From assembly GCA_011390165.1 (NCBI GenBank), contig JAABSV010000015.1, forward strand, positions 1 through 64,000: a DNA stretch of 64,000 nucleotides, in the 5' to 3' direction. A program made the position numbers and the translations under genes. Positions 7,188 to 39,860 of the stretch are shown piece by piece (position 1 is the first letter of the stretch; each line of letters starts with the position of its first letter). The notes under the pieces were generated by a model. That model was not told the DNA's origin. It ran no database searches and saw only the letters and a list, made by a program, of their open reading frames with translations. The DNA comes from Desulfobulbaceae bacterium. GTDB taxonomy: Bacteria; Desulfobacterota; Desulfobulbia; Desulfobulbales; Desulfocapsaceae.

Positions 7188-8735
7188 TTACAGGGGAATG
7201 TTGCCATGCTTTTTGGCCGGCCGTCGCTCCCGTTTGCCGGCCAGCATGTTGAAGGCGTCAATGATTCGCTGCCGGGAGGTATGCGGTTCGATAACATCGT
7301 CGACAAAACCCCGTTCCGCCGCCTTGTAGGGGGTGGCAAACTCGGCGGCGTACTCGGCGAGAATCCGCTCTTTGGCGGCCTGGGGTTCCTCGGCCTTGGC
7401 AATCTCGTTTTTGAAGATGATGTTCACCGCCCCCTCCGAACCCATGACCGCCACCTCGGCTGTCGGCCAGGCGAAGACCACATCGGCCCCCAGCGACTTG
7501 GAACACATCGCCACATAGGCGCCGCCATAGGCCTTGCGGGTGATCAGGGTCACCTTCGGCACGGTGGCCTCGCTGTAGGCATAGAGGATCTTGGCGCCAT
7601 GGCGGATGATGCCGCCGTACTCCTGGGCGGTGCCGGGGAGAAATCCGGGGACGTCGACCAGGGTGAGCAGAGGGATGTTGAAGGCATCGCAGCTGCGGAT
7701 GAAGCGGGCCGCCTTGTCACCGGCGTTCATATCCAGACAGCCGGCCATCACCTGCGGCTGGTTGGCGACAATCCCCACCGATTGCCCGTTTATCCGGGCA
7801 AAACCGGTAATCAGATTGGTGGCAAAATGAGGCTGGTACTGGAGAAAATCGCCCTGGTCGACGATGGGCAGGATCACCTCGAGGATATCGTAGGCGTGGT
7901 TGGGGCTTTCGGGAATGATGCTGTTCAACTCGGGCAGAGGACGGTTGAGGTCGTCGCCGGTTGCCGCCGCCGGGGCCCGTTCCATACTGTTGGCGGGGAG
8001 GAAGCCGAGCAGGCGGCGGATAGCGGCGAGGCAGGTGACGTCGTTTTCGGCAATGAAGTGGACATTGCCGGAGACCCGGTTGTGGGTCATGGCGCCGCCC
8101 AGTTCTTCGGCACTGACGATTTCGCCGGTCACCGTCTTGATCACCTGCGGGCCGGTGATGAACATCTGCGAGGTCTTGTCGACCATGAAGATGTAGTCGG
8201 TGAGGGCCGGCGAGTAGACCGCACCGCCGGCGCAGGGCCCCATGATCGCCGAGATCTGCGGGATGACGCCGGAGTAGATGGCGTTGCGGAAAAAAATATC
8301 GCCATAGCCCGAGAGGGCGTCCACCGCCTCCTGAATTCGGGCGCCGCCGGAGTCGTTCAGGCCAACGATGGGGGCACCCACCTTCACCGCCGCATCCATT
8401 GCCTTGACGATCTTGCGGGCGTGCATCTCTCCCAGGGCGCCACCGGTGATGGTGAAGTCCTGGGAAAAAGCATAAACCAGCCTGCCCTCCACCTGGCCGT
8501 AGCCGGTTACCACCGACTCCCCTTCAAAGTCGAGTTTGTCCATGCCGAAGCGGCTGCAACGGTTCTTGACAAAGGCATCGCTCTCGATGAAGGTGCCGGG
8601 GTCGAACAGGGTGACCAGCCGCTCCCGGGCGGTCATCTTGCCGCCGGCATGCTGTTTGTCGATCTTCTGCTGGCCGCCGCCAAGGGCCAGTCTGCTTTTC
8701 TTCTCCTGAAGAGTGGCGATTTTGTCGGCAGACAT
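7188..8735 (-). CDS. mmdA: Methylmalonyl-CoA decarboxylase carboxyltransferase (alpha) subunit
   Basis: A 515-residue acyl-CoA carboxyltransferase (crotonase-like fold, two homologous halves) of the MmdA/PccB family. It moves the carboxyl group from methylmalonyl-CoA to biotin. Visible features include the [21 protein letters not shown] start, [29 protein letters not shown] and the second-half [12 protein letters not shown] and [11 protein letters not shown] oxyanion-hole motifs. The start at 8735 follows GCAGGAG with 7-nt spacing. A propionyl-CoA carboxylase beta subunit is the alternative. No biotin carboxylase is present here, while mmdB/C/D are, so a Na+-pumping decarboxylase is preferred. 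It may run in reverse during propionate oxidation. Confidence 0.93.
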
Positions 8736-9308
8736 GCGAGACTCCTGCAAGGGTTGTCGGGCTGGTTACGGGGACAGTCTCTTGAACATTGTTATCGTAG
8801 GCTGCATTAACCGGCCTTTTCCAGATATCTTTGGCGGAACAGATGAAATAAAATATGTAATGTAATCAATTTGTAGACTGAATATTTGTCATCGCCTCTT
8901 TAAAAGTGGCAAAAGGTGCTGTTCGTGTCTTGATAGCAAATATATGCTTTTAAATATTTAAATATAATAGTTTTTTATCAAGTGATGGCTGCTTTAAGGG
9001 TTCAATTAGTAACACTGTTACTCATTACATCTACCGTAGAGCCTGATTCGTTGTCAAGAAAAAACGGTGTGTCGATTCGGCGCCTCCGTGCTCGCCACCC
9101 GAGGATGGGGGTGGAAGAGGGGAAAAATTGCATGGAAATTCTACCCTAAAGATGCTAGGTTCAACCCTGTATACGGGCGCTGAAAACCGGGCGGGAAACG
9201 GGGTGAAGAGGTGTGCCGGGGACTCTGCCGGGAAAACTGCCAAAAACAGTGGAAAAAGTTGAACAGCAAACAGGATGGCAATTGCCGACGGCGCAACCGG
9301 AGGGTGAC
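8736..9308. other. Divergent control region between mmdA and acuI
   Basis: This 573-bp gene-free spacer contains an AT-rich core (about 8820-9030), clearly lower in GC than the flanks. On the minus strand TTGATA-17 nt-AATATT (about 8960-8990) is a plausible mmdA promoter. The palindrome at 9008-9022 is roughly equidistant from both start codons. No small gene is supported. Confidence 0.6.
9008..9022. promoter_or_regulatory. Perfect palindromic operator candidate (TetR regulon)
   Basis: AGTAACACTGTTACT is a perfect 7+1+7 inverted repeat in the mmdA/acuI spacer. It shares the core GTAACA-N-YRTTAC with the site upstream of tetR (5014-5028). No similar palindrome was noticed elsewhere in the window, so it likely binds the local TetR protein. 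Confidence 0.55.
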
Positions 9309-10304
9309 ATGGGAAAAAGGTACCGGGCATGGCAGGTGTCGGAAGATGGCGAGGGGACGTTTACCCGCAGTCTGATCGACAAGGAATTCGATGGGTTGCC
9401 GGCGGGGGAGGTGCTGGTCCGGGTGGCCTGGTCTTCGCTCAACTACAAGGATGCCCTCTCCGCCAGCGGCAACCGCTCGGTGACCCGAAAATTTCCGCAC
9501 ACGCCGGGGATTGATGCCGCCGGAGTGGTTGCCGAGAGCAGTGACCCGGCCTTTGCGGTTGGCGAGGCAGTGGTTGTCACCAGTTACGATCTCGGCATGA
9601 ACACCCCCGGTGGCTTTGCCGAGTACATCAGGGTACCGGCAGCCTGGGTCCTCCCCCTGCCGGCTGGACTCAGCCTGCGCGAGGCGATGCTCTTCGGCAC
9701 CGCCGGTTTTACCGCCGGCATGGCGGTGGCCGCCCTGAGCCGGACAGTGCCGCCGGAGCGGGGAGAAATCCTTGTTACCGGTGCGAGCGGCGGGGTGGGT
9801 TGCCTAACGGTGGCCATCCTGGCCACTCTTGGCTACCGGGTGGCGGCCGTTTCCGGCAAAGCGGCGGCGGCCGATTTTCTCACTTCCCTGGGGGCGGGGC
9901 GGCTTCTTTCCCGGGCCGAGGCGGTGGCCGGCAATGAGCGGCCCTTACTGAAGGGGGTGTGGGCCGGAGTGGTAGACTGCGTCGGTGGAGAGATCCTCGC
10001 CGCAGCCATCAAGGCCACCGATTCTCTCGGGGTGGTTGCCTGCTGCGGCAATGTCGCCTCGCCGGAACTGGCGATCAACGTCTTTCCCTTCATCCTCCGC
10101 GGGGTGAGCCTGGTAGGGATCGATTCGCAGAACTGTCCGATGGCCCATCGTCGAGAAGTGTGGCAGAAGTTGGCAGGGGAGTGGAAACCGAAGCAACTGG
10201 CCACCCTGGCCCGGGAGGTCGATCTGGTCGATCTGGATCCGGAGATTTCTCGGATTCTTCGTGGGGAACAGCAGGGAAGGGTTCTGGTCCGGGTCGCACC
10301 GTAG
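9309..10304 (+). CDS. acuI: YhdH/AcuI-type NADPH-dependent acryloyl-CoA reductase (MDR superfamily)
   Basis: A 331-residue medium-chain dehydrogenase/reductase without zinc ligands. The N-terminal GroES-like domain holds SSLNYKDALSASG and TPGIDAAGVV, and the Rossmann domain holds VTGASGGVGCLTVAILATLGY, typical of the YhdH/YhfP group. Relatives reduce acryloyl-CoA to propionyl-CoA. The start at 9309 is chosen for GGAGGGTGAC immediately upstream; a longer frame upstream has low-complexity content. Its position, divergent from a propionyl-CoA decarboxylase operon with a shared palindrome, supports an acryloyl-CoA/propionyl-CoA role, but substrate specificity is inferred. Confidence 0.85.
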   Translation: MGKRYRAWQVSEDGEGTFTRSLIDKEFDGLPAGEVLVRVAWSSLNYKDALSASGNRSVTRKFPHTPGIDAAGVVAESSDPAFAVGEAVVVTSYDLGMNTPGGFAEYIRVPAAWVLPLPAGLSLREAMLFGTAGFTAGMAVAALSRTVPPERGEILVTGASGGVGCLTVAILATLGYRVAAVSGKAAAADFLTSLGAGRLLSRAEAVAGNERPLLKGVWAGVVDCVGGEILAAAIKATDSLGVVACCGNVASPELAINVFPFILRGVSLVGIDSQNCPMAHRREVWQKLAGEWKPKQLATLAREVDLVDLDPEISRILRGEQQGRVLVRVAP

Positions 10305-29076: not shown

Positions 29077-30199
29077 TGAGGCCTATATGCGTCTCGCCCT
29101 GCGCGAGGCGAGAAAGGGGCTGGGGCGGACCTCGCCCAACCCCTGCGTCGGGGCGGTACTGGTCAGGGATGGCCAGGTCATCGCCCGGGGCTTCCATCGG
29201 CGGGCCGGCGCCCCGCACGCTGAAGTCGAGGCCCTGAACCGGGCCGCTGGCCAAAGTGTGGCCGGGGCGACCATCTATGTTACCCTCGAGCCCTGCAACC
29301 ACACCGGCCGGACCCCTCCCTGTACCCGGGCGATTGTGGCGGCCGGCATTTCCCGGGTGGTGGTGGGGATGTGCGACCCCAACCCTCTGGTAGCCGGCAG
29401 TGGCATCCGCGCTCTGCGGGAACAGGGCCTTGAGGTGCGTTGCGGGGTGCTGGAAGAGCAGTGCCGCCGGTTGAACCGCCCCTTCTGCAAACATATCACC
29501 AGCGGGCTGCCCTGGGTAATCATGAAGGCCGGGGTGAGCCTGGATGGCCGCCTGAACTACCGCAGAGGGGCAAGCGGCTGGATGACCGGGCCGGAGTCGC
29601 AGGTCGCGGTGCACCGCCTCCGCGACCGGGTCGATGCGATTCTGGTCGGCCGGGGGACGGTGGCCATCGACAACCCCTCCCTGACCACCCGTCTGCCGGG
29701 CCGGGGCGGCCGCGACCCACTGCGGGTGGTCGTCGACAGCCACCTTTCTCTGCCGCTTGCCGCCACCCTTTTTCAACAGCACTCTCCTGCCCCGACCTTT
29801 GTTTTCTGTGCCCCGGAGGCCGATCCCGACCGGGCCGCCCGACTCGCCGACCTCGGCGTTCGGGTCTGGCCGGTGGAGCGAACGGCTGCCGGTCTCGATC
29901 TCCGCCAGGTTCTCCGCATCCTCGGTGGGGAGGGACTCTGCTCTCTGCTGGTGGAGGGGGGGAGTGCCATACACGGCTCCTTCCTGCGGGCCGCTCTCTA
30001 CGATTACGCCCATCTCTTCATTGCACCGCTCTTTGCCGGTAACGGCGGAGAACCGCTGGTCGGCGGTCTGCTGGCCGGCGACCGTGCCCATGCCCCGCAC
30101 CTGAGGGGGGTAGAGCTCCGGCGGTTGGGGGAGGATCTGCTTCTCTCCGGCGAGGTCGTTTATTCCCGGGAAGAGGGGGGACTGACCGGGGTCCCCTGA
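29063..30199 (+). CDS. ribD: Bifunctional riboflavin biosynthesis deaminase/reductase RibD
   Basis: A 378-residue two-domain enzyme. The N-terminal deaminase has zinc ligands His52, Cys78 and Cys87 and catalytic Glu54 (HAEVEAL, LEPCNHTGRTPPC). The C-terminal reductase (about 150-365) has KAGVSLDGRLNYRRGASGWMTG and VEGGSAIHGSFL. It converts the GTP-derived pyrimidine in riboflavin synthesis. Its 3' end overlaps the convergent ParB-like gene by 40 nt. Confidence 0.96.
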   Translation: MHRADEAYMRLALREARKGLGRTSPNPCVGAVLVRDGQVIARGFHRRAGAPHAEVEALNRAAGQSVAGATIYVTLEPCNHTGRTPPCTRAIVAAGISRVVVGMCDPNPLVAGSGIRALREQGLEVRCGVLEEQCRRLNRPFCKHITSGLPWVIMKAGVSLDGRLNYRRGASGWMTGPESQVAVHRLRDRVDAILVGRGTVAIDNPSLTTRLPGRGGRDPLRVVVDSHLSLPLAATLFQQHSPAPTFVFCAPEADPDRAARLADLGVRVWPVERTAAGLDLRQVLRILGGEGLCSLLVEGGSAIHGSFLRAALYDYAHLFIAPLFAGNGGEPLVGGLLAGDRAHAPHLRGVELRRLGEDLLLSGEVVYSREEGGLTGVP

Positions 30200-31185
30200 A
30201 GACGACGCAGGTAGGCGGCACAGGCGGCCAGATCGGCAAAGGTGGTGGTCAGGGTCACCTCGTCTTTTTCAAAGGATGGGCTATGGCTGAGGCTGCTGTT
30301 GGCCGGCAGGGGGAGGCTTTTCACCTTTCTGGCAAATTCTGCCTCGGCGGCGGTGAGGGCCGGGCGGTGCTGCTCTTGGAGGAGGTCGCCGAGATGGCTG
30401 ATCTTCTGGGCCAGGTTCCACACCGGGTGGTGGTGGATGGCCTGAATCTCCTCGGCTGCCAGAGTGGCGGCGATGCTCTCTTGCCGGCGGGCGGCGATCT
30501 CACTGATCAAGGAAAGAAAACGGCGCTGTTTCCCTTCCCCCATGGCCAGGTCGGTAAAGAGGCGGAGAAGGGCCAGGCGGTCGGTGTCGCTGGCCAGACG
30601 GAGCAGTTCCAGAGAGATCTTCTCGCTCAGCAGGCCGTTGTCCATGGCCCGCAACAACTCCTCGTCAAGGGCCAGGACCCGCTCGCTGAGCGCCAGGCTT
30701 GCCGGCCGTCTCGGCAGGGAGAGCCTGGTCAGCCAGTCACCGCCGACCACGGCCTCATCACCAATAATATGTCGGGCAAGCTCGATAAACCGGGCCTTTT
30801 CGGCCAGGGAGAGGGGACCGCAATTCTGCTGGTCGGCCAGGACCAACGGCAACAGCAGTTCCGGCGGCGTGGCGGCAGGCAGAGAGAGGCAGTTGAGCTG
30901 CCCGGCACCGTTTTGTCGGGCAAAGTGCAGTCTCCTCAGCCCGCAGACCACAGTATAGCGGCCCTGGTGCCCCCCCTGGCAGCCGGCGGTGGGCAGGAGC
31001 AGCGGTGGGTGGAGCACTCCGGCCAGGGTCAGGGATTCGGTCAGGGCCGGCGGTAGGCGGTCAACGGCCCAAGGGTGGAGGGACCACTCGGGGTCGAGTC
31101 GGATATCGGTAAGGGGTACAGGCCGGCAACAGGCATCAATCAGCCAACATGCTGGCGTGCTTGTTGCGGAGTCGGACTCTGGCAT
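30160..31185 (-). CDS. Solitary ParB/Spo0J-like domain protein
   Basis: A 341-residue protein. Residues about 20-110 resemble the ParB N-terminal domain: the DIRLDPEWSLHPW strand, TESLTLAGVLHPPLLLP and the CGLRRLHFAR counterpart of the GxRR nucleotide-binding motif. A helix-rich middle (about 120-260) resembles the ParB helix-turn-helix region but is divergent. No ParA gene or parS cluster accompanies it, so chromosome segregation is not implied. It starts 85 bp after the ihfA-like gene and overlaps ribD at the 3' end. A DNA-binding or CTPase-type role is possible; function unknown. Confidence 0.7.
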   Translation of the reverse strand: MPESDSATSTPACWLIDACCRPVPLTDIRLDPEWSLHPWAVDRLPPALTESLTLAGVLHPPLLLPTAGCQGGHQGRYTVVCGLRRLHFARQNGAGQLNCLSLPAATPPELLLPLVLADQQNCGPLSLAEKARFIELARHIIGDEAVVGGDWLTRLSLPRRPASLALSERVLALDEELLRAMDNGLLSEKISLELLRLASDTDRLALLRLFTDLAMGEGKQRRFLSLISEIAARRQESIAATLAAEEIQAIHHHPVWNLAQKISHLGDLLQEQHRPALTAAEAEFARKVKSLPLPANSSLSHSPSFEKDEVTLTTTFADLAACAAYLRRLQGTPVSPPSSRE

Positions 31186-31270: not shown

Positions 31271-31558
31271 TCAGGAGTTGTTGATCTTGTCGCGGAGGAT
31301 ACCGGATGGCTTGAAGGTTACCACCCGCCGGGCATCCAGAGTCAACTCGTCGCCGGTTTGCGGGTTGCGCCCGCGTCTGGCGCTTTTTGCTTTGACATTG
31401 AACTTGCCAAAACCGCTGAGCAGCAGGTCCGAACCGCTGATCAGGCTCTCTTTGGAAATACGCAGGAAGGCCTCCACCGAGTCGGTGGCCTGGGCCTTGG
31501 TCAACCCTTCATGATTTTTATAGACCTGCTGAACCAGGTCGGCCTTGGTAAGTGTCAT
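31271..31558 (-). CDS. ihfA: IHF/HU-family DNA-bending protein (integration host factor alpha-like)
   Basis: A 95-residue histone-like protein: MTLTKADLVQQVY start, FGKFNVKAKSARRGRNPQTG arm with the DNA-intercalating Pro, and a TFKPSGILRDKIN C-terminus. The RRGRNPQTGDEL motif favours the IHF alpha class over HU, but assignment between the two is not certain. AGAGGAG lies before the ATG. It may be transcribed with the ParB-like gene. Confidence 0.88.
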   Translation of the reverse strand: MTLTKADLVQQVYKNHEGLTKAQATDSVEAFLRISKESLISGSDLLLSGFGKFNVKAKSARRGRNPQTGDELTLDARRVVTFKPSGILRDKINNS

Positions 31559-31701: not shown

Positions 31702-32910
31702 TTACATCATGACGCTGGAGAGCTTGAAGATCGGCAGGTACATCGCCACAACGATGCCACCGATCATCCCGCCGAGAAAGACCATCATAAAGGGTTCAAT
31801 CATCGCGGTGAGGTTTTCCACCGCCTGGTCCACCTCCTCGTCATAAAAGTCGGCAATCTTTTCCAGCATCGCGTCAAGGGCACCCACCGACTCACCGACA
31901 TTGATCATTTGGACCACCATGTTTGGGAAGACGCCACTCTCCTCAAGAGGCTCGGCAATGGGGCGCCCCTCGGCGATGGAATCGCCAACCCGGAAGACTG
32001 CCTGCTCAATCACCTTGTTGCCGGAAGTCTTGGCCACCACCTGCAGGGCCTCGAGGATTGGTACACCGGCACTGAGCATGGTGCTGAGCGTCCGGGTGAA
32101 CTTGGCGACCGCCACCTTTCGCAGGAGAATGCCGAATACCGGGGCGCGGAGCATACCCCGGTCCATGGCTATTCGCCCCTTCTCCGTCTGGTAGATCTTT
32201 TTCACCCCCAGGCCGAGAAGGAAAAAGGCGATGATGATGTAGATAAAATATTCCTGAAAAAATTCACTCATATTGACGACAATCGTGGTGGGGAGGGGGA
32301 GGCTGTGGCCGAACCCCTCGAACATCGACTTGAATACCGGTACCACAAAAACCAAAATGACGATCAAAATGAGGATTGAGATCGCCAGGCAGACGGTGGG
32401 GTAGGTCATCGCCCCCTTGATCTTTTTCTTCAGGGCCATGGATTTTTCCATGAACACTGCCAGCCTGTTGAGGATGGTGTCGAGGATACCGCCGGTCTCG
32501 CCGGCCTCGATCATGTTGGTGAAGAGGTTGTCGAAGATCTTGGTTTTCTTGCGCATGGAATCGGCAAGGGTTGAGCCGGCCTCCACATCCATGCGGATCT
32601 CGTTCAGTGCCTTTTTGAAGGTGGGGTTACTCTGCTGCTTTTCCAGGATCTCCAGACCCTGTACCAGGGGGAGACCGGCATTGATCATTGTCGAGAGTTG
32701 CCGGGTGAAGATGACGATATCCCGCCCTTTTACCTGTGGTTTAAAAAAGGAGATATTTTCCAGCAGATCTTTCGGCTTTTCCTTGATCGTCGGGTTGCTG
32801 ATGCGCATTCGGCGGACCTGGGCCTGGGCTCCGGCCAGGTCCGGTGCCTCAACCTCCCCTTTTCGCTTTTCGCCGTGGGTGTTCTTTCCTTTCCATATGT
32901 AGATGGGCAT
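31702..32910 (-). CDS. pilC: Type IV pilus assembly inner-membrane protein PilC
   Basis: A 402-residue polytopic protein with two GspF/PilC (T2SSF) domains (about 70-190 and 275-395), each with MINAGLPLVQGLEIL- or MLSAGVPILEALQVV-type motifs, and about three membrane helices. It is the platform for pilus assembly motors. GGAGG precedes the ATG. It stands alone: no pilB, pilT or pilA is adjacent, so the remaining pilus genes must be elsewhere. Confidence 0.93.
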   Translation of the reverse strand: MPIYIWKGKNTHGEKRKGEVEAPDLAGAQAQVRRMRISNPTIKEKPKDLLENISFFKPQVKGRDIVIFTRQLSTMINAGLPLVQGLEILEKQQSNPTFKKALNEIRMDVEAGSTLADSMRKKTKIFDNLFTNMIEAGETGGILDTILNRLAVFMEKSMALKKKIKGAMTYPTVCLAISILILIVILVFVVPVFKSMFEGFGHSLPLPTTIVVNMSEFFQEYFIYIIIAFFLLGLGVKKIYQTEKGRIAMDRGMLRAPVFGILLRKVAVAKFTRTLSTMLSAGVPILEALQVVAKTSGNKVIEQAVFRVGDSIAEGRPIAEPLEESGVFPNMVVQMINVGESVGALDAMLEKIADFYDEEVDQAVENLTAMIEPFMMVFLGGMIGGIVVAMYLPIFKLSSVMM

Positions 32911-33249
32911 GGCGGACCTCCGAGTGGGGGGGGGAGACTGCTCAGCGTCAGTATGCTGGCAGTTGGCTAAACCGGCAGTGATATCGATTGTATACCATCG
33001 CTCACATGATTACAAGCTTCTCGCTTTGTTTGCTATCGACAATCTTTGTGGCCCTCCGGTACTGTTTTAAAGGCCCCTGTAGAGAGAATTCGATCATTTT
33101 AAAAAAAGCTTGTCGCTAAGCAAGGCTGTTGGTATAGTACACGGTTCGTGTAGATTGGATTATCTGGCTGCAGGCGTTTCATCGTCTGTTGCCGTTTTTT
33201 TTGGCACCTGTCGGCGTGCCGGCAGGTATCTGCTGGAGTGGAGGAGAAG
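32911..33249. other. Divergent promoter region between pilC and the small Cys-rich gene
   Basis: No gene is supported in this 339-bp stretch. It is AT-richer than its surroundings and contains the strong promoter candidate at 33110-33138 for the rightward gene. Confidence 0.55.
33110..33138 (+). promoter_or_regulatory. Sigma-70-like promoter
   Basis: TTGTCG (33110-33115), a 17-nt spacer and TATAGT (33133-33138) match the housekeeping consensus well. It lies about 110 bp upstream of the small Cys-rich protein gene, after an AT-rich run of A residues. Confidence 0.6.
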
Positions 33250-33495
33250 ATGCAGAGTCAGACCACGGTAAATTACAGTGATGGTCGTTTTCAACCGGTT
33301 ATCGAGAAGTGTCAGGGCTGTGGACGGGTTGTTGAACAGGAGGGGGTGGAGTACTGCCGGAGCTATCTGCAGCCGGCCGCCAAGTGGAAACTTGGCTTCT
33401 GTAACTTTGCCACCCACGCCAAACCGGAGATCAACATCATCAAGGTCAGGATCAACCCGTTGAAAGCAGCCAAGCGGGCATCGAAGAGAAAATAG
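33250..33495 (+). CDS. Small Cys-rich protein with W-x2-G-x-C-x3-ATH motif
   Basis: An 81-residue basic protein of unknown function. It contains CQGCGRVV (CxxC), a third Cys in YCRSYLQP, a fourth in the motif AAKWKLGFCNFATHAK, and a Lys-rich tail (KAAKRASKRK). The four cysteines suggest a zinc ribbon or small metal site. I recall similar short proteins in sulfate reducers, but no function can be named. GAGGAG lies directly before the ATG; an in-frame GTG 12 nt earlier is possible. It has its own promoter (33110-33138) and a terminator-like hairpin just downstream. Confidence 0.75.
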   Translation: MQSQTTVNYSDGRFQPVIEKCQGCGRVVEQEGVEYCRSYLQPAAKWKLGFCNFATHAKPEINIIKVRINPLKAAKRASKRK

Positions 33496-35920: not shown

Positions 35921-36322
35921 ATGAATTATGGGATTGTGAGTCAAGAGCAACTGGAGCAGATCGATACGATTTTGACGGATAAACTGATCAAACTCGGGGT
36001 AGATTGCGTCATCATCATTGATATGGCCGGCAATATCATAACCGCCAGGGACAATGGCGAAAGCAAGTATGATGTCTATTCCTTCGCTGCCCTGGCGGCA
36101 GGAAATTTCGCTACGGTCGACGCCATGGCCAAGCTGGTGGGGGAACAGGAGTTCTCCCTGCTGTTCCACAAAGGGCAGGAATCGAACATCCATTTCAGCA
36201 AGATAGATGAGGAACTGCTGCTGATCTCGATGTTTGGACGTGATATCTCACTGGGATTCCTCCGCCTGAACGTTGTCGACGTCATCGAAAAGATACGCAA
36301 GGTATGGGAGAAAAAGGGGTAG
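35921..36322 (+). CDS. Roadblock/LC7-domain protein (MglB-like)
   Basis: A 133-residue single roadblock/LC7 domain protein. It has an N-terminal helix, then the alternating strands CVIIIDMAGNIITARD, LLFHKGQESNIHFSKI and LLLISMFGRDISLGFLRL. Such proteins act as GAP or scaffold for MglA GTPases in polarity control. GAGG lies about 8 nt before the ATG. It is followed 62 nt later by an MglA-like GTPase, so the pair probably works together. Confidence 0.9.
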   Translation: MNYGIVSQEQLEQIDTILTDKLIKLGVDCVIIIDMAGNIITARDNGESKYDVYSFAALAAGNFATVDAMAKLVGEQEFSLLFHKGQESNIHFSKIDEELLLISMFGRDISLGFLRLNVVDVIEKIRKVWEKKG

Positions 36323-36384
36323 CCGAAGAAAATTCCGGCAAGTGTGCGGAGTTGATCGCAGACAACAGTTAAGGGAGTGAGACC

Positions 36385-36990
36385 TTGAGCTTCATCAATT
36401 TAAAAGACAAAATTGTCCAGGTAAAAATTGTCTATTACGGGCCCGGGCGCTGCGGTAAGACCACCAACCTTGAGTATATCAACCGAACCTTTCGCAAGCA
36501 GATTGTCTCGGAGATGGTCAGTCTCAAGACCCATGGTGATCGGACCCTGTTTTTCGATTTTTTGCCTTTTGATATGGGCCAGATAAAAGGTTATGACATC
36601 AAGATCCAGCTCTACACCGTGCCAGGTCAGGTGAAGTACAACGCTACCCGCAAGCTGGTTTTACGCGGAGTGGACGGAATTGTCTTTGTCGCCGATGCCA
36701 TGGAGAAACAACGGGAGAAAAATATCCGCTCCCTCAACCAGCTGCACGAGAACCTCCAGTCCTATAAGGAGAGTATCTTCAAAATTCCCCTGGTCATGCA
36801 GTACAATAAGGTTGATCTGAAGGAGCACGGAATCCCCATTCTGCCCATCGAGGTTCTGGAAAAGGATCTCAACAGCCGCCTGCAGGTCCCCTATTTTGAG
36901 GCGAGCGCGATTACCGGTTACAATGTCGCCGCGACGTTGAAGAAAATTATCTCTTCGTCAGTGATTTCAATACAGAAAAAATTACTCTAG
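36385..36990 (+). CDS. MglA-like small Ras-family GTPase
   Basis: A 201-residue GTPase of the bacterial MglA group. The P-loop GPGRCGKTT is at 19-27, switch II is TVPGQ at 78-82, and the guanine-specificity motif NKVD is at 141-144. In switch II the Asp of the eukaryotic DxxG motif is replaced by Thr, as in MglA. The start is TTG 36385 with AAGGGAG upstream. MglA controls polar recruitment of pilus motors in Myxococcus. Neighbouring roadblock and scaffold genes and a nearby pilC suggest motility or polarity control, but targets are unknown. Confidence 0.93.
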   Translation: MSFINLKDKIVQVKIVYYGPGRCGKTTNLEYINRTFRKQIVSEMVSLKTHGDRTLFFDFLPFDMGQIKGYDIKIQLYTVPGQVKYNATRKLVLRGVDGIVFVADAMEKQREKNIRSLNQLHENLQSYKESIFKIPLVMQYNKVDLKEHGIPILPIEVLEKDLNSRLQVPYFEASAITGYNVAATLKKIISSSVISIQKKLL

Positions 36991-37001
36991 AGAGAACTGT
37001 A

Positions 37002-39860
37002 GTGAAACAGCAAAGCGAAAATGCCTACGACGATGATTTGACCGTCGGTACCGACGAAATGGATGACTCGTACTACTCCGAACCGGTAGATCTGTTCGAG
37101 TTTTCAACCGATATCGAGGCACCGATCAGCCGGTTGAAAACCCTGGTGCTCTCCATTGACTGGGAAATAACCGACGATATCCTGGTCCAGTTCAGCGAGG
37201 AGTTGCAGGAGTTGAAGGAGACCTGGGCCGGTGAGAAGGTCAATCTGGTCTATGTTCAGGCACTGGAAAAGATATGCCGCTATATCTACCAGAAAAAAGC
37301 CGACTCCCATCCAAATTCCATCAAGCTGCTGCTCAATCTATTCCATAACCTCGAACGCATAGTCACCGATGAGACCCTCGGCGGTGAGGAAAAGAAAAAG
37401 CTGCTCGTCGATGATGTGAGAAGATTTGAGAACCTGAAACGGGCAATCAGCCGCAAAGAAATGCCTGCCTCGCCGCCATTGTCCGGGTCGGAGCGCGCCG
37501 GTGAGAAGATGGCCGGCACCGGCTCGGCCCAATTGGAGAAGATGAAGGCGCTCATCCTGGCCATTGACTGGGAGGTTGGTGATACTGATCTGGCCAGCCT
37601 GCAGGGTGAGGTGAGCCGTCTTGAGAAGCAGTTTGCCGACAGCCGGCCGGCCCGGATCCTTCTCCAGGGGATTGCCACCCTCACCGGCTATCTCAAGGCG
37701 AAAGGAGCGAAGGCTCACGGCAATACTCTCGAGCTGCTGCAGTTTTTCTACCAGAGCTTGGAGAAGGTGGCCGGTCAGGGAAAAGAACCAGAGGAGGAAA
37801 GGGCAATTCTCTTTCCGGCGGTTGAGCGCTTTAACGCCTTCAAGGCGGCCATTGACCAAGTGGGCGAAGCTGACGACCGGCAGGGTGGCGCGACCGCAGG
37901 CCACCGTGATGGTGCCACCGCTCAAGCCCCACCACCCCGGACTGCTCCAGTTGTCGAAGAGGACGACGAGGAGGATGAAGATGAGGAGGGCCTTGGCGAG
38001 TCGGCTGTGGTCACACCGGCACTTTCCGATGTCTCGGATGAGGTGATCTGCGGCTTTCAGGCCGATCTCGAGGCAAAATCGCTGGGGCTGGCCGCTCCCG
38101 ACCATATTCTCTCCCGGGTGGACGACTTTTTTGCCGACGAGCCGGCGGCTGCCCCGGCCGCACAGTCGATGGCGCCCCCCCCTGCCGGACAGCCCCCAAC
38201 CACCGTGCCAACACCGGTAGAACCTCCGGCGGTCGAGGTCAACTTCGCTAAGGAAAGCGAAATTGCCGAACAAGACAGGCCTGACGGCGAGGTTGATGTG
38301 GTGGCACAGTTCTTTGCCGATGGGCTCGAAGAGGAGAGTGCTCCGGCCTCGGCACCGCCATCGGTTGAGCGGAGTAAGGCCCTGGAAGGGGTCGCCGTGG
38401 AGAGCGATGCCGATGAAGACGATGATGAACCGGAATTACCAAAATTTGGTGATGAACCAGCCCCGGCTCTGGCCGACAGGGATGAAGTGAGTCTCTATAA
38501 CGCTGAACTGGTTGCCGCGGTCACCACCGAAGATGAGGAGTTCGATGAGGTGGCCGGCACCGTTGACGGTTTTTTTGCTACCGAGGAGACTCCGGCCGCT
38601 GCCCAGCCGCCCTTTGCTGGAGAGGCAATGCCTCTCTCTCTGGAAGAAGAGGAGGGGCAGCAGGATGCCGAGACCCCGGCTGCTGACGATCGTGATGAAT
38701 CTATCGCTGCGGCCACTGACGGTGACGGCCTGTCGATGCCATCTGCACTGCCCGAAAGCAGCCAATTATACGGGGAAGCGATGGCTCCGGCACAGCTTGA
38801 GATGGAAGAGACAGCTCCGACTGACCCTGAACTGGAAGAGGTGGTCGTGGTTGACCCTGAGTTGGAAGAGACGGCTCCGACTGACCCTGAGCTGGAAGAG
38901 GTGGCGATGGAGGAGAAGGTGAGTCCGGAAGTGGCAGCTGAGCTGGTTGCCACTGATACGGCGGCGTTGCCGGAGGTGGAGGCGATTGAGCCGCCCACCG
39001 AGATGGAAATGGCTTGGCCCGGAGTGGACGGGGAGTCTGTTGCCGAGGAAGAGGAAGTTGTTGACGGCGAGGTGGTCTTTGCACCGGTGCTTGACGAGGA
39101 ATTTTCTGCCCCCGTGGAGGATGCTGACGAAGAGCTGCCCCTTGTCGTCCCAGAGCCTGATGAAGCCGATGAAGCTGAAGAGGCGGATGAAGTCGAGATT
39201 TCCGGGGGAGATGAGGAAGGCGACGTAGCTGAAGAGACGGATGAAGTTGAGACCTCCGGGGGAGATGAGGAAGGCGACGAAACCGAAGAGGTGGATGAAG
39301 CCGAGACCCCCGGGGAAGACGAAGAAGGCGACTATCCGGCAGCGGTGGGAATACTTGCCGGTCTGCGGGCGGCCATCCAAACCCTTGCCACAGACCCGGA
39401 AGAGCGCCGTACGGCAGCACTCTTTCAAGAGATCCATTTTCTCCGTGGCCGTTTCGCCGGACGACCGGTAGAGAAGAGCTTTCTGCAGCTGCTCTCCACC
39501 GTCGGCCAGCATATTGACCGGCATGGCCAGGAGTACGGCGGAGGCGTGGCCAGGGATCTGCTCCGATCGGTCAGTGACGCGCTCGCCCTCTGCCTGGAAA
39601 GCCCGGCGCACGGCCAGGAACTGCTTCTACCGGAGACCTTGAAGGTGCTCGAGTGGCAGCAGACGCTGCTCAGTGAACTCCGCTGGGAGCTGCGTCGGGA
39701 GCCAGTGGCTCGGGAGACCCTTGCTGCAACTGCCGACGGCGCTGCTCAACTTGAGGAGCCGGCGGTGACGGTTGCCGACCTCCATCAGGAGCTGGTTGGT
39801 CTGCGGCTGGAACTGGCGGAACTGCGACGGGAGCTGCGCGGGAAGGCGTCGATGGCTTGA
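37002..39860 (+). CDS. Large acidic protein with three repeated helical SIDWE-type modules
   Basis: A 952-residue soluble protein; I recognise no named family. Two N-terminal modules (about 38-130 and 182-280) share the pattern LK-L/A-L-x-I-DWE followed by amphipathic helices ending in LERIV or LEKVA. A third, diverged copy lies at about 780-900 (GLRAAIQTLATDPEERR onward). Between them is a long acidic, Pro/Ala-rich stretch with PTDPELEE repeats (about 600-630) and three SGGDEEGD-type repeats (about 720-776). The C-terminus (about 925-950) is a Leu/Glu/Arg coiled coil. The start is GTG, 12 nt after the MglA-like stop. It is probably a scaffold or effector of the GTPase; this is inference. Confidence 0.85.
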   Translation: MKQQSENAYDDDLTVGTDEMDDSYYSEPVDLFEFSTDIEAPISRLKTLVLSIDWEITDDILVQFSEELQELKETWAGEKVNLVYVQALEKICRYIYQKKADSHPNSIKLLLNLFHNLERIVTDETLGGEEKKKLLVDDVRRFENLKRAISRKEMPASPPLSGSERAGEKMAGTGSAQLEKMKALILAIDWEVGDTDLASLQGEVSRLEKQFADSRPARILLQGIATLTGYLKAKGAKAHGNTLELLQFFYQSLEKVAGQGKEPEEERAILFPAVERFNAFKAAIDQVGEADDRQGGATAGHRDGATAQAPPPRTAPVVEEDDEEDEDEEGLGESAVVTPALSDVSDEVICGFQADLEAKSLGLAAPDHILSRVDDFFADEPAAAPAAQSMAPPPAGQPPTTVPTPVEPPAVEVNFAKESEIAEQDRPDGEVDVVAQFFADGLEEESAPASAPPSVERSKALEGVAVESDADEDDDEPELPKFGDEPAPALADRDEVSLYNAELVAAVTTEDEEFDEVAGTVDGFFATEETPAAAQPPFAGEAMPLSLEEEEGQQDAETPAADDRDESIAAATDGDGLSMPSALPESSQLYGEAMAPAQLEMEETAPTDPELEEVVVVDPELEETAPTDPELEEVAMEEKVSPEVAAELVATDTAALPEVEAIEPPTEMEMAWPGVDGESVAEEEEVVDGEVVFAPVLDEEFSAPVEDADEELPLVVPEPDEADEAEEADEVEISGGDEEGDVAEETDEVETSGGDEEGDETEEVDEAETPGEDEEGDYPAAVGILAGLRAAIQTLATDPEERRTAALFQEIHFLRGRFAGRPVEKSFLQLLSTVGQHIDRHGQEYGGGVARDLLRSVSDALALCLESPAHGQELLLPETLKVLEWQQTLLSELRWELRREPVARETLAATADGAAQLEEPAVTVADLHQELVGLRLELAELRRELRGKASMA

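Follow-up and report, generated by a model that had tools for sequence, protein, structure and literature searches.

We analysed a 64,000-nt stretch of DNA from a Desulfobulbaceae bacterium (GenBank assembly GCA_011390165.1, contig JAABSV010000015.1, positions 1 to 64,000, forward strand), hereafter the window, and focused on three genes that encode a roadblock protein, an MglA-like GTPase and a large protein. We refer to these genes as the triad. The initial annotation, made from the sequence, had placed three close genes here, the last for a protein of 952 residues, and this was confirmed: all three lie at the expected positions on the same strand.

35921-36322, + strand: roadblock (MglB-like) gene, ATG start, 133 amino acids (aa)
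36385-36990, + strand: mglA, small GTPase of Group 1 type, TTG start, 201 aa
37002-39860, + strand: large gene, GTG start, 952 aa

The roadblock gene and mglA are separated by 62 nt; mglA and the large gene are 11 nt apart by our count, rather than the 12 nt given earlier. The TTG start of mglA and the GTG start of the large gene were seen again in 27 long-form homologues, taking in each case the start nearest to the match. A promoter and terminator scan was uninformative, with three promoter-like sites against 1.2 expected, and no terminator-like sites against 4.8 expected.

The window GTPase matches Pfam Ras (E 5e-12) and Myxococcus xanthus MglA (E 9e-52). In an alignment of 23 homologues it carries the nucleotide-binding motifs GPGRCGKT (P-loop) and NKVD. 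Group 1 MglA proteins are defined, in the portion of PMC4316618 consulted, by TVPGQ in G3 and an Arg beside the conserved G2 Thr. The same alignment reveals both marks in the window protein, namely TVPGQ and the segment GDRTLFFDFLP, with the Arg adjoining the G2 Thr, and by these motifs we assign it to the Group 1 type. The roadblock protein scores slightly below the Pfam Robl_LC7 cut-off (22.5 versus 23 bits). Searches with phmmer relate it to MglB of M. xanthus (E 6e-15) and of Thermus thermophilus (E 4e-8), and its gene is the single PF03259 match in the window genome. Judging from these similarities, it is an MglB-like protein paired with mglA and a predicted GTPase-activating protein (GAP).

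Architecture of the large protein

The large protein matched no Pfam and no NCBIfam family at E ≤ 1, in keeping with its earlier description as a protein of no recognised family. TPR repeats, the mark of SgmX, and a receiver or pseudo-receiver domain, the mark of FrzS and RomR, were likewise not found with Pfam at this threshold. Its parts are as follows.

37002-37103, + strand: N-terminal acidic stretch (aa 1-34) with YDDDLTVG and VDLFE, recognised by composition and largely retained in long forms (alignment of 28)
37110-37460, + strand: module A (aa 37-153), five-helix domain, weakly CheA-P1-like; independent E-value (iE) to the module profile 3e-49, match at aa 39-153
37530-37859, + strand: module B (aa 177-286), second copy; profile iE 1.9e-25
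37860-39341, + strand: acidic linker rich in Ala and Pro (aa 287-780), 31% D+E, net charge -142
39342-39680, + strand: module C (aa ~781-893), divergent third copy, placed by a profile-profile match of the third-copy alignment
39681-39860, + strand: C-terminal tail (aa 894-952 plus stop), read from sequence

The seeds of the module profile include the window protein. Module A has a pLDDT (predicted local distance difference test) of 89 in an AlphaFold 2 (AF2) model, and a genome search with the broad module profile places it at G000:C15:37110-37454. Module C by itself gives a weak profile match (iE 0.037). The alignment of third copies, whose rows were picked through weak module-profile matches and in which the window is present twice, matches the module profile with a probability of 98.9% (E 1e-17), compared to ≤0.7% for reversed controls. 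Copies 2 and 3 are separated by 233-752 aa in 21 homologues. The tail probably ends in a short coiled coil. The initial annotation had pictured repeated helical modules joined by a long acidic linker, with a coiled-coil end, as expected for a scaffold or effector. Three such modules are present, and their arrangement on the acidic linker supports a scaffold-like build.

The module weakly resembles the P1 domain of CheA, a histidine phosphotransfer (HPt) domain, and lacks the phospho-histidine. Broad module profiles matched CheA P1 with probabilities of 29% and 22%, and HPt sets of all kinds with 30% and 12%. The narrow module profile A2 gave no match to CheA P1, and the third-copy profile fell short of significance in the same comparison (P 0.053). 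Searches of PDB sequences with A2 returned 14 matches at E ≤ 10, none of them convincing (best E 0.17), and the 62 members of the A2 set showed scattered weak Pfam matches, none common to more than nine members. Foldseek with the module found nothing at E ≤ 0.001 (195 matches at E ≤ 10). At the position that pairs with the phospho-histidine, the window has Gln, and His occurs in 1 of 55 alignment rows; the following position is His in 3 of 55.

Conservation and forms of the triad

Genome contigs were scanned with aa 1-266 of the large protein, and this and all other homologue searches covered the phylum of the window genome. Among the resulting 43 named loci, every one has a roadblock match upstream of the large-protein homologue, cut by the contig end in L030 and interrupted by two in-frame stops in L034. 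In 41 of the 43, mglA lies between the two (the L028 copy contains a run of N). In L032 and L036 the roadblock and module genes adjoin each other; we considered whether these genomes lack mglA and rejected this, as each has one MglA on another contig. Long-form loci share 80-95% identity with the window in the roadblock protein, 88-97% in MglA (L028 apart) and 36-58% in the first 266 residues of the large protein.

The triad is not peculiar to the window genome, since the module profile matches 190 of 242 genomes of the class; in the phylum it matches 71 of 394, and a broader profile, A4, matches 116 of 394. Many of the host genomes belong to relatives of sulfate reducers, judged by locus names, and to our knowledge surface movement in such organisms has been little studied. 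Cultivated relatives with such loci include Desulforhopalus singaporensis and Desulfoprunum benzoelyticum (L005 and L016). More distant loci (L084-L122) were assessed on stretches of up to 13 kb, and roadblock, mglA and module occur together in 27 of 39. Even among the weakest matches (L104-L122), this holds for 17 of 19. Locus L123, read as MazG-like, was dropped as a false positive, and the broad alignment omits L093, where a contig end truncates the module. Roadblock genes of ∼280 aa, with an N-terminal extension of ∼150 aa, lie upstream of mglA in L094, L096, L099 and L103.

We also approached the question from the GTPase. The MglA profile A3 matched 211 of 394 phylum genomes at 1e-50, with a gap in the scores between 2e-84 and 2e-79. 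For the listed MglA places above the gap, the module lies ≤3 kb downstream on the same strand in 93 of 115. For those below it (E 2e-79 and weaker to the triad profile), the corresponding figure is 0 of the 35 listed. By sequence score, the phylum holds a second MglA group below the gap. This split is partly by construction, because the loci behind A3 had themselves been located by means of the module, and the species are not independent. Two of the 22 above-gap places scored as module-less (L092 and L095) have, right after mglA, a protein with a CheW-like end (2e-24 and 3e-28) and a weak module match; these loci and L091 were counted as having no module within 3 kb. Collectively, the data support the triad as a conserved unit.

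The third protein occurs in several forms. The long form is found in 27 loci (L002-L028), some of them cut by contig ends, and the short form, in which a single module is followed by a linker and a C-terminal stretch, in 16 (L029-L044). Short-form proteins read as 163-299 aa, although their start positions are uncertain. The third protein had been described as giant; this is apt for the 952-aa window product, but large size is not essential to the family. Many distant relatives in the phylum consist of one module, a linker and a C-terminal domain similar to CheW and CheA P5. Such an end was not found in the window protein; the best match among 44 window-lineage and short proteins had an E-value of 0.22. 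Foldseek with the CheW-like end gave nothing at E ≤ 0.001 (226 matches at E ≤ 10). In domain content, the family resembles CheA stripped of its kinase and looks like an adaptor.

Some loci depart from these arrangements. L077, from a genome given as 99% complete (G006), has a long-form gene with two modules, no roadblock gene or mglA in its 3.3-kb stretch, and no MglA found in the genome. Solo relatives with a module and a CheW-like end, and no mglA in the stretch, are seen in L097, L101 and L102, with mnmG nearby in L101. In L091, L092 and L095, a long one-strand run encodes, within the limits of each stretch, MglA, a CheW-ended protein, DUF4388 proteins, a HAMP/Cache protein, a class III cytochrome c, a module-CheW protein and a PilB/GspE-type ATPase (assigned with Pfam in L092 and by similarity in the others).

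Pilus-type genes near the triad

A solitary pilC had been noted 3 kb from the triad, and we find it 3.0 kb from the roadblock gene:

31702-32910, - strand: pilC-like gene, type IV pilus inner-membrane protein, possible functional neighbour; T2SSF (Pfam)

PilC is its best NCBIfam model (516 bits, cut-off 700), ahead of GspF (380 bits, cut-off 424), with both scores below their cut-offs. A pilC gene accompanies the triad in 9 of 27 long-form loci, one of these a fragment at a contig end. More broadly, PilM-N-O, PilC or a PilB/GspE-type ATPase is encoded near 30 of 82 loci. The ATPase is present in 5 of 16 short-form and 9 of 39 distant loci, and PilM-N-O in 7 of 39 distant loci. In eight distant loci the ATPase gene comes next after the module gene on that strand. 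The L120 ATPase (7222-9603), directly after the triad, has N-terminal TPR repeats, the repeat type of SgmX, followed by MshEN and T2SSE. NCBIfam scores for PilB and GspE were 524 and 502 bits in L092, and 508 and 494 bits in L120, all below cut-off. The PilM of L104 scores above its cut-off. On a different contig, the window genome itself encodes a PilB-like ATPase (673 bits across a 385-residue stretch, cut-off 675.65).

Of the 103 sampled genomes that carry this MglA type, 102 have PilM, compared to 222 of the remaining 291 (Fisher P = 2.5e-9, with no correction for shared descent). Taking one MglA and the listed PilM per genome, PilM lies ≤15 kb from MglA of this type in 12 of the 45 genomes with both places listed, versus 0 of 27 listed places of the other type. 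A type IV pilus link therefore finds some support in the relatives of the large protein. Because they mostly keep the gene order and often lie near pilus genes, the large protein may link a polarity switch to pilus placement.

Other genes recur in these neighbourhoods. An 85-aa protein encoded between pilC and the YggS gene (33238-33495, + strand) is 64-86% identical in long-form loci that keep pilC. On the pilC side, the window also has a gene read as ParB-like (30160-31185, - strand; no Pfam family over cut-off), which adjoins pilC, and, next to pilC, one for a small HU-type DNA-binding protein (31271-31558, - strand). ParB-like and HU-type genes accompany pilC in several long-form loci.

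In distant loci the gene following the module gene is elsewhere that of a Ser/Thr kinase or a TPR protein. The kinase, in some cases with TPR repeats, is next in L089, L112, L118, L119 and L121. In L032 and L036, open reading frames upstream of the roadblock gene, on the opposite strand, were read as FHA and PP2C proteins. Two DUF4388 proteins, which we take to be of the PATAN-domain kind, have similar sequences in 21 of 39 distant loci.

A proposed working of the triad and its relation to known systems

We propose, as an evenly balanced judgement, that the triad consists of an MglB-MglA switch and its own third component, a CheA-like adaptor devoid of the kinase, which couples the switch to polar type IV pili. 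We infer direct MglA binding, a polar position, ATPase recruitment and pilus control along the following lines. MglA-GTP at one pole would bind the P1-like modules or the N-terminal motif of the adaptor. The adaptor, multivalent through its repeats, would collect components of the type IV pilus, the extension ATPase among them, at that pole, and MglB would end the signal by stimulating GTP hydrolysis. In distant relatives the adaptor would comprise a short N-terminal motif, one P1-like domain, a flexible linker and the CheW/CheA-P5-like end; the window lineage, in which no such end was found, would instead use three copies of the helical domain on a long acidic linker.

A broader and more tentative proposal, on which we lean somewhat to the doubtful side, is that this protein adds a third core component to the Ras-like polarity systems of bacteria in much of one phylum, and has been masked by divergence. 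It would be a kinase-less CheA whose P1-like end faces the GTPase and whose P5/CheW-like end faces a chemosensory array or the pilus base, joining both layers in one polypeptide. In one branch the CheW end would have been lost and the P1-like module amplified, giving a multivalent acidic scaffold that may form a polar condensate.

Several observations weigh against a strictly linked, pilus-directed unit. The module occurs without mglA of this type ≤3 kb upstream on the same strand in 33 of 126 places. For this count, each gene with several module copies was entered once, and six weak single rows (E 2e-4 to 7e-4), all located away from such an mglA, were omitted; including the six gives 39 of 132. 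In 17 genomes a module is listed but MglA above the gap is missing. A renewed search of six of them at 1e-5 found no MglA; the module is present and MglA absent at that threshold in genomes G007, G010 and G018. Finally, the two neighbouring ATPases tested, from L092 and L120, are not separable as PilB or GspE by score. The initial annotation had held that homologues without linked mglA or roadblock genes would speak against a polarity system. Such homologues exist as a minority of module places.

A different and, in our estimate, unlikely role for the third protein is that of an upstream, pole-targeting regulator of the GTPase cycle, either a guanine nucleotide exchange factor like RomR/RomX or a co-GAP like RomY, instead of an effector. 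A regulator would account equally well for the close and ordered pairing with the MglB gene, and in L032 and L036 it is the roadblock gene that the module gene stays with while mglA lies elsewhere. Because this link persists where mglA has moved, the regulator role stays a serious rival. The long acidic, Pro-containing linker also recalls the Pro-rich and Glu-rich output part of RomR, as described in the portion of PMC3441718 consulted. On the other hand, linkage to PilM-N-O and the ATPase fits an effector better, and the large protein, with no Pfam family at E ≤ 1, has no receiver or roadblock domain and therefore shows no sign of descent from RomR.

Rather improbable, in our view, is that the triad drives another polar or membrane process, such as chemosensory array positioning, a secretion machine or a Ser/Thr-kinase pathway, with the pilus genes being neighbours for another reason. 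The CheW-like end of the relatives, the Ser/Thr kinases directly downstream in some loci, the frequent DUF4388-similar sequences and the ambiguity between PilB and GspE are all consistent with such a process; the near-universal co-occurrence of PilM with this MglA type and its proximity in a subset of genomes speak against it. Very improbable is a phosphorelay role, with the module serving as a functional HPt domain and the protein as an intermediate that hands phosphate on to a response regulator: the CheA-P1-like fold and profile similarity would suit this, but we rejected a phosphorelay because the phospho-accepting histidine is missing in all but one row, and the frequent module His (position 69, 26 of 55 rows) sits in the loop between helices 3 and 4 of the AF2 model.

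MglA systems are best studied in Myxococcus. With the MglA-MglB pairs of M. xanthus and Thermus, the window shares the P-loop, the Arg beside the G2 Thr, TVPGQ, NKxD and an adjoining MglB-like roadblock gene. In contrast to those pairs, a third gene is commonly fixed beside the pair here. According to the part of PMC4316618 consulted, gene neighbourhoods of Group 1 mglA are highly variable, and the only neighbours it names are PATAN-domain proteins, which occur occasionally beside Group 1 and Group 5 mglA. The same source places Myxococcus mglA apart from the genes for its response-regulator partners. Conservons and Group 3 MglA systems likewise cluster MglA, an MglB-like protein and a protein of unknown function, but they have other GTPase groups (GTPGQ, no Arg finger) and other partner domains, as far as the consulted part of PMC4316618 describes them.

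The proposed job, relaying MglA-GTP to the pilus extension ATPase, is that of SgmX, FrzS and SopA, proteins unrelated to the one in the window. According to the parts of PMC11580455 and PMC7519303 consulted, MglA-GTP of M. xanthus recruits SgmX, which brings PilB to the pole, assisted by FrzS and SopA. TPR repeats make up SgmX, and a pseudo-receiver domain is found in FrzS (PMC11580455, same portion); the window protein shows neither, and its gene adjoins mglA. CheA has a P1 domain at its front, where our family has a domain that weakly resembles it, and the P5/CheW-like fold recurs at the end of the distant relatives; unlike CheA, there is no recognised kinase domain and no phospho-histidine, and the window protein has no CheW-like end. 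FimL of Pseudomonas aeruginosa, which we compared by description, has HPt-like domains in which Gln replaces the phospho-histidine, as in window module A, and is polar and important for pilus function; FimL is, however, related to the ChpA N-terminus and acts on cAMP synthesis by CyaB (PMC3019171, consulted in part).

In the literature surveyed, at the level of abstracts, we found no report of mglA and mglB being accompanied by a gene for a CheW- or HPt-like protein. Where a partner gene stays next to mglA in many genomes of a phylum, it points to a handful of proteins that can be tested to learn how a small GTPase directs the site of pilus formation. By analogy with these systems, the triad plausibly combines SgmX-type and FimL-type ideas, with an HPt-like adaptor, encoded beside mglA, that would read MglA-GTP and gather pilus parts. 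The fixed partner also suggests that chemosensory and GTPase layers, which are separate proteins in Myxococcus, can be physically joined.

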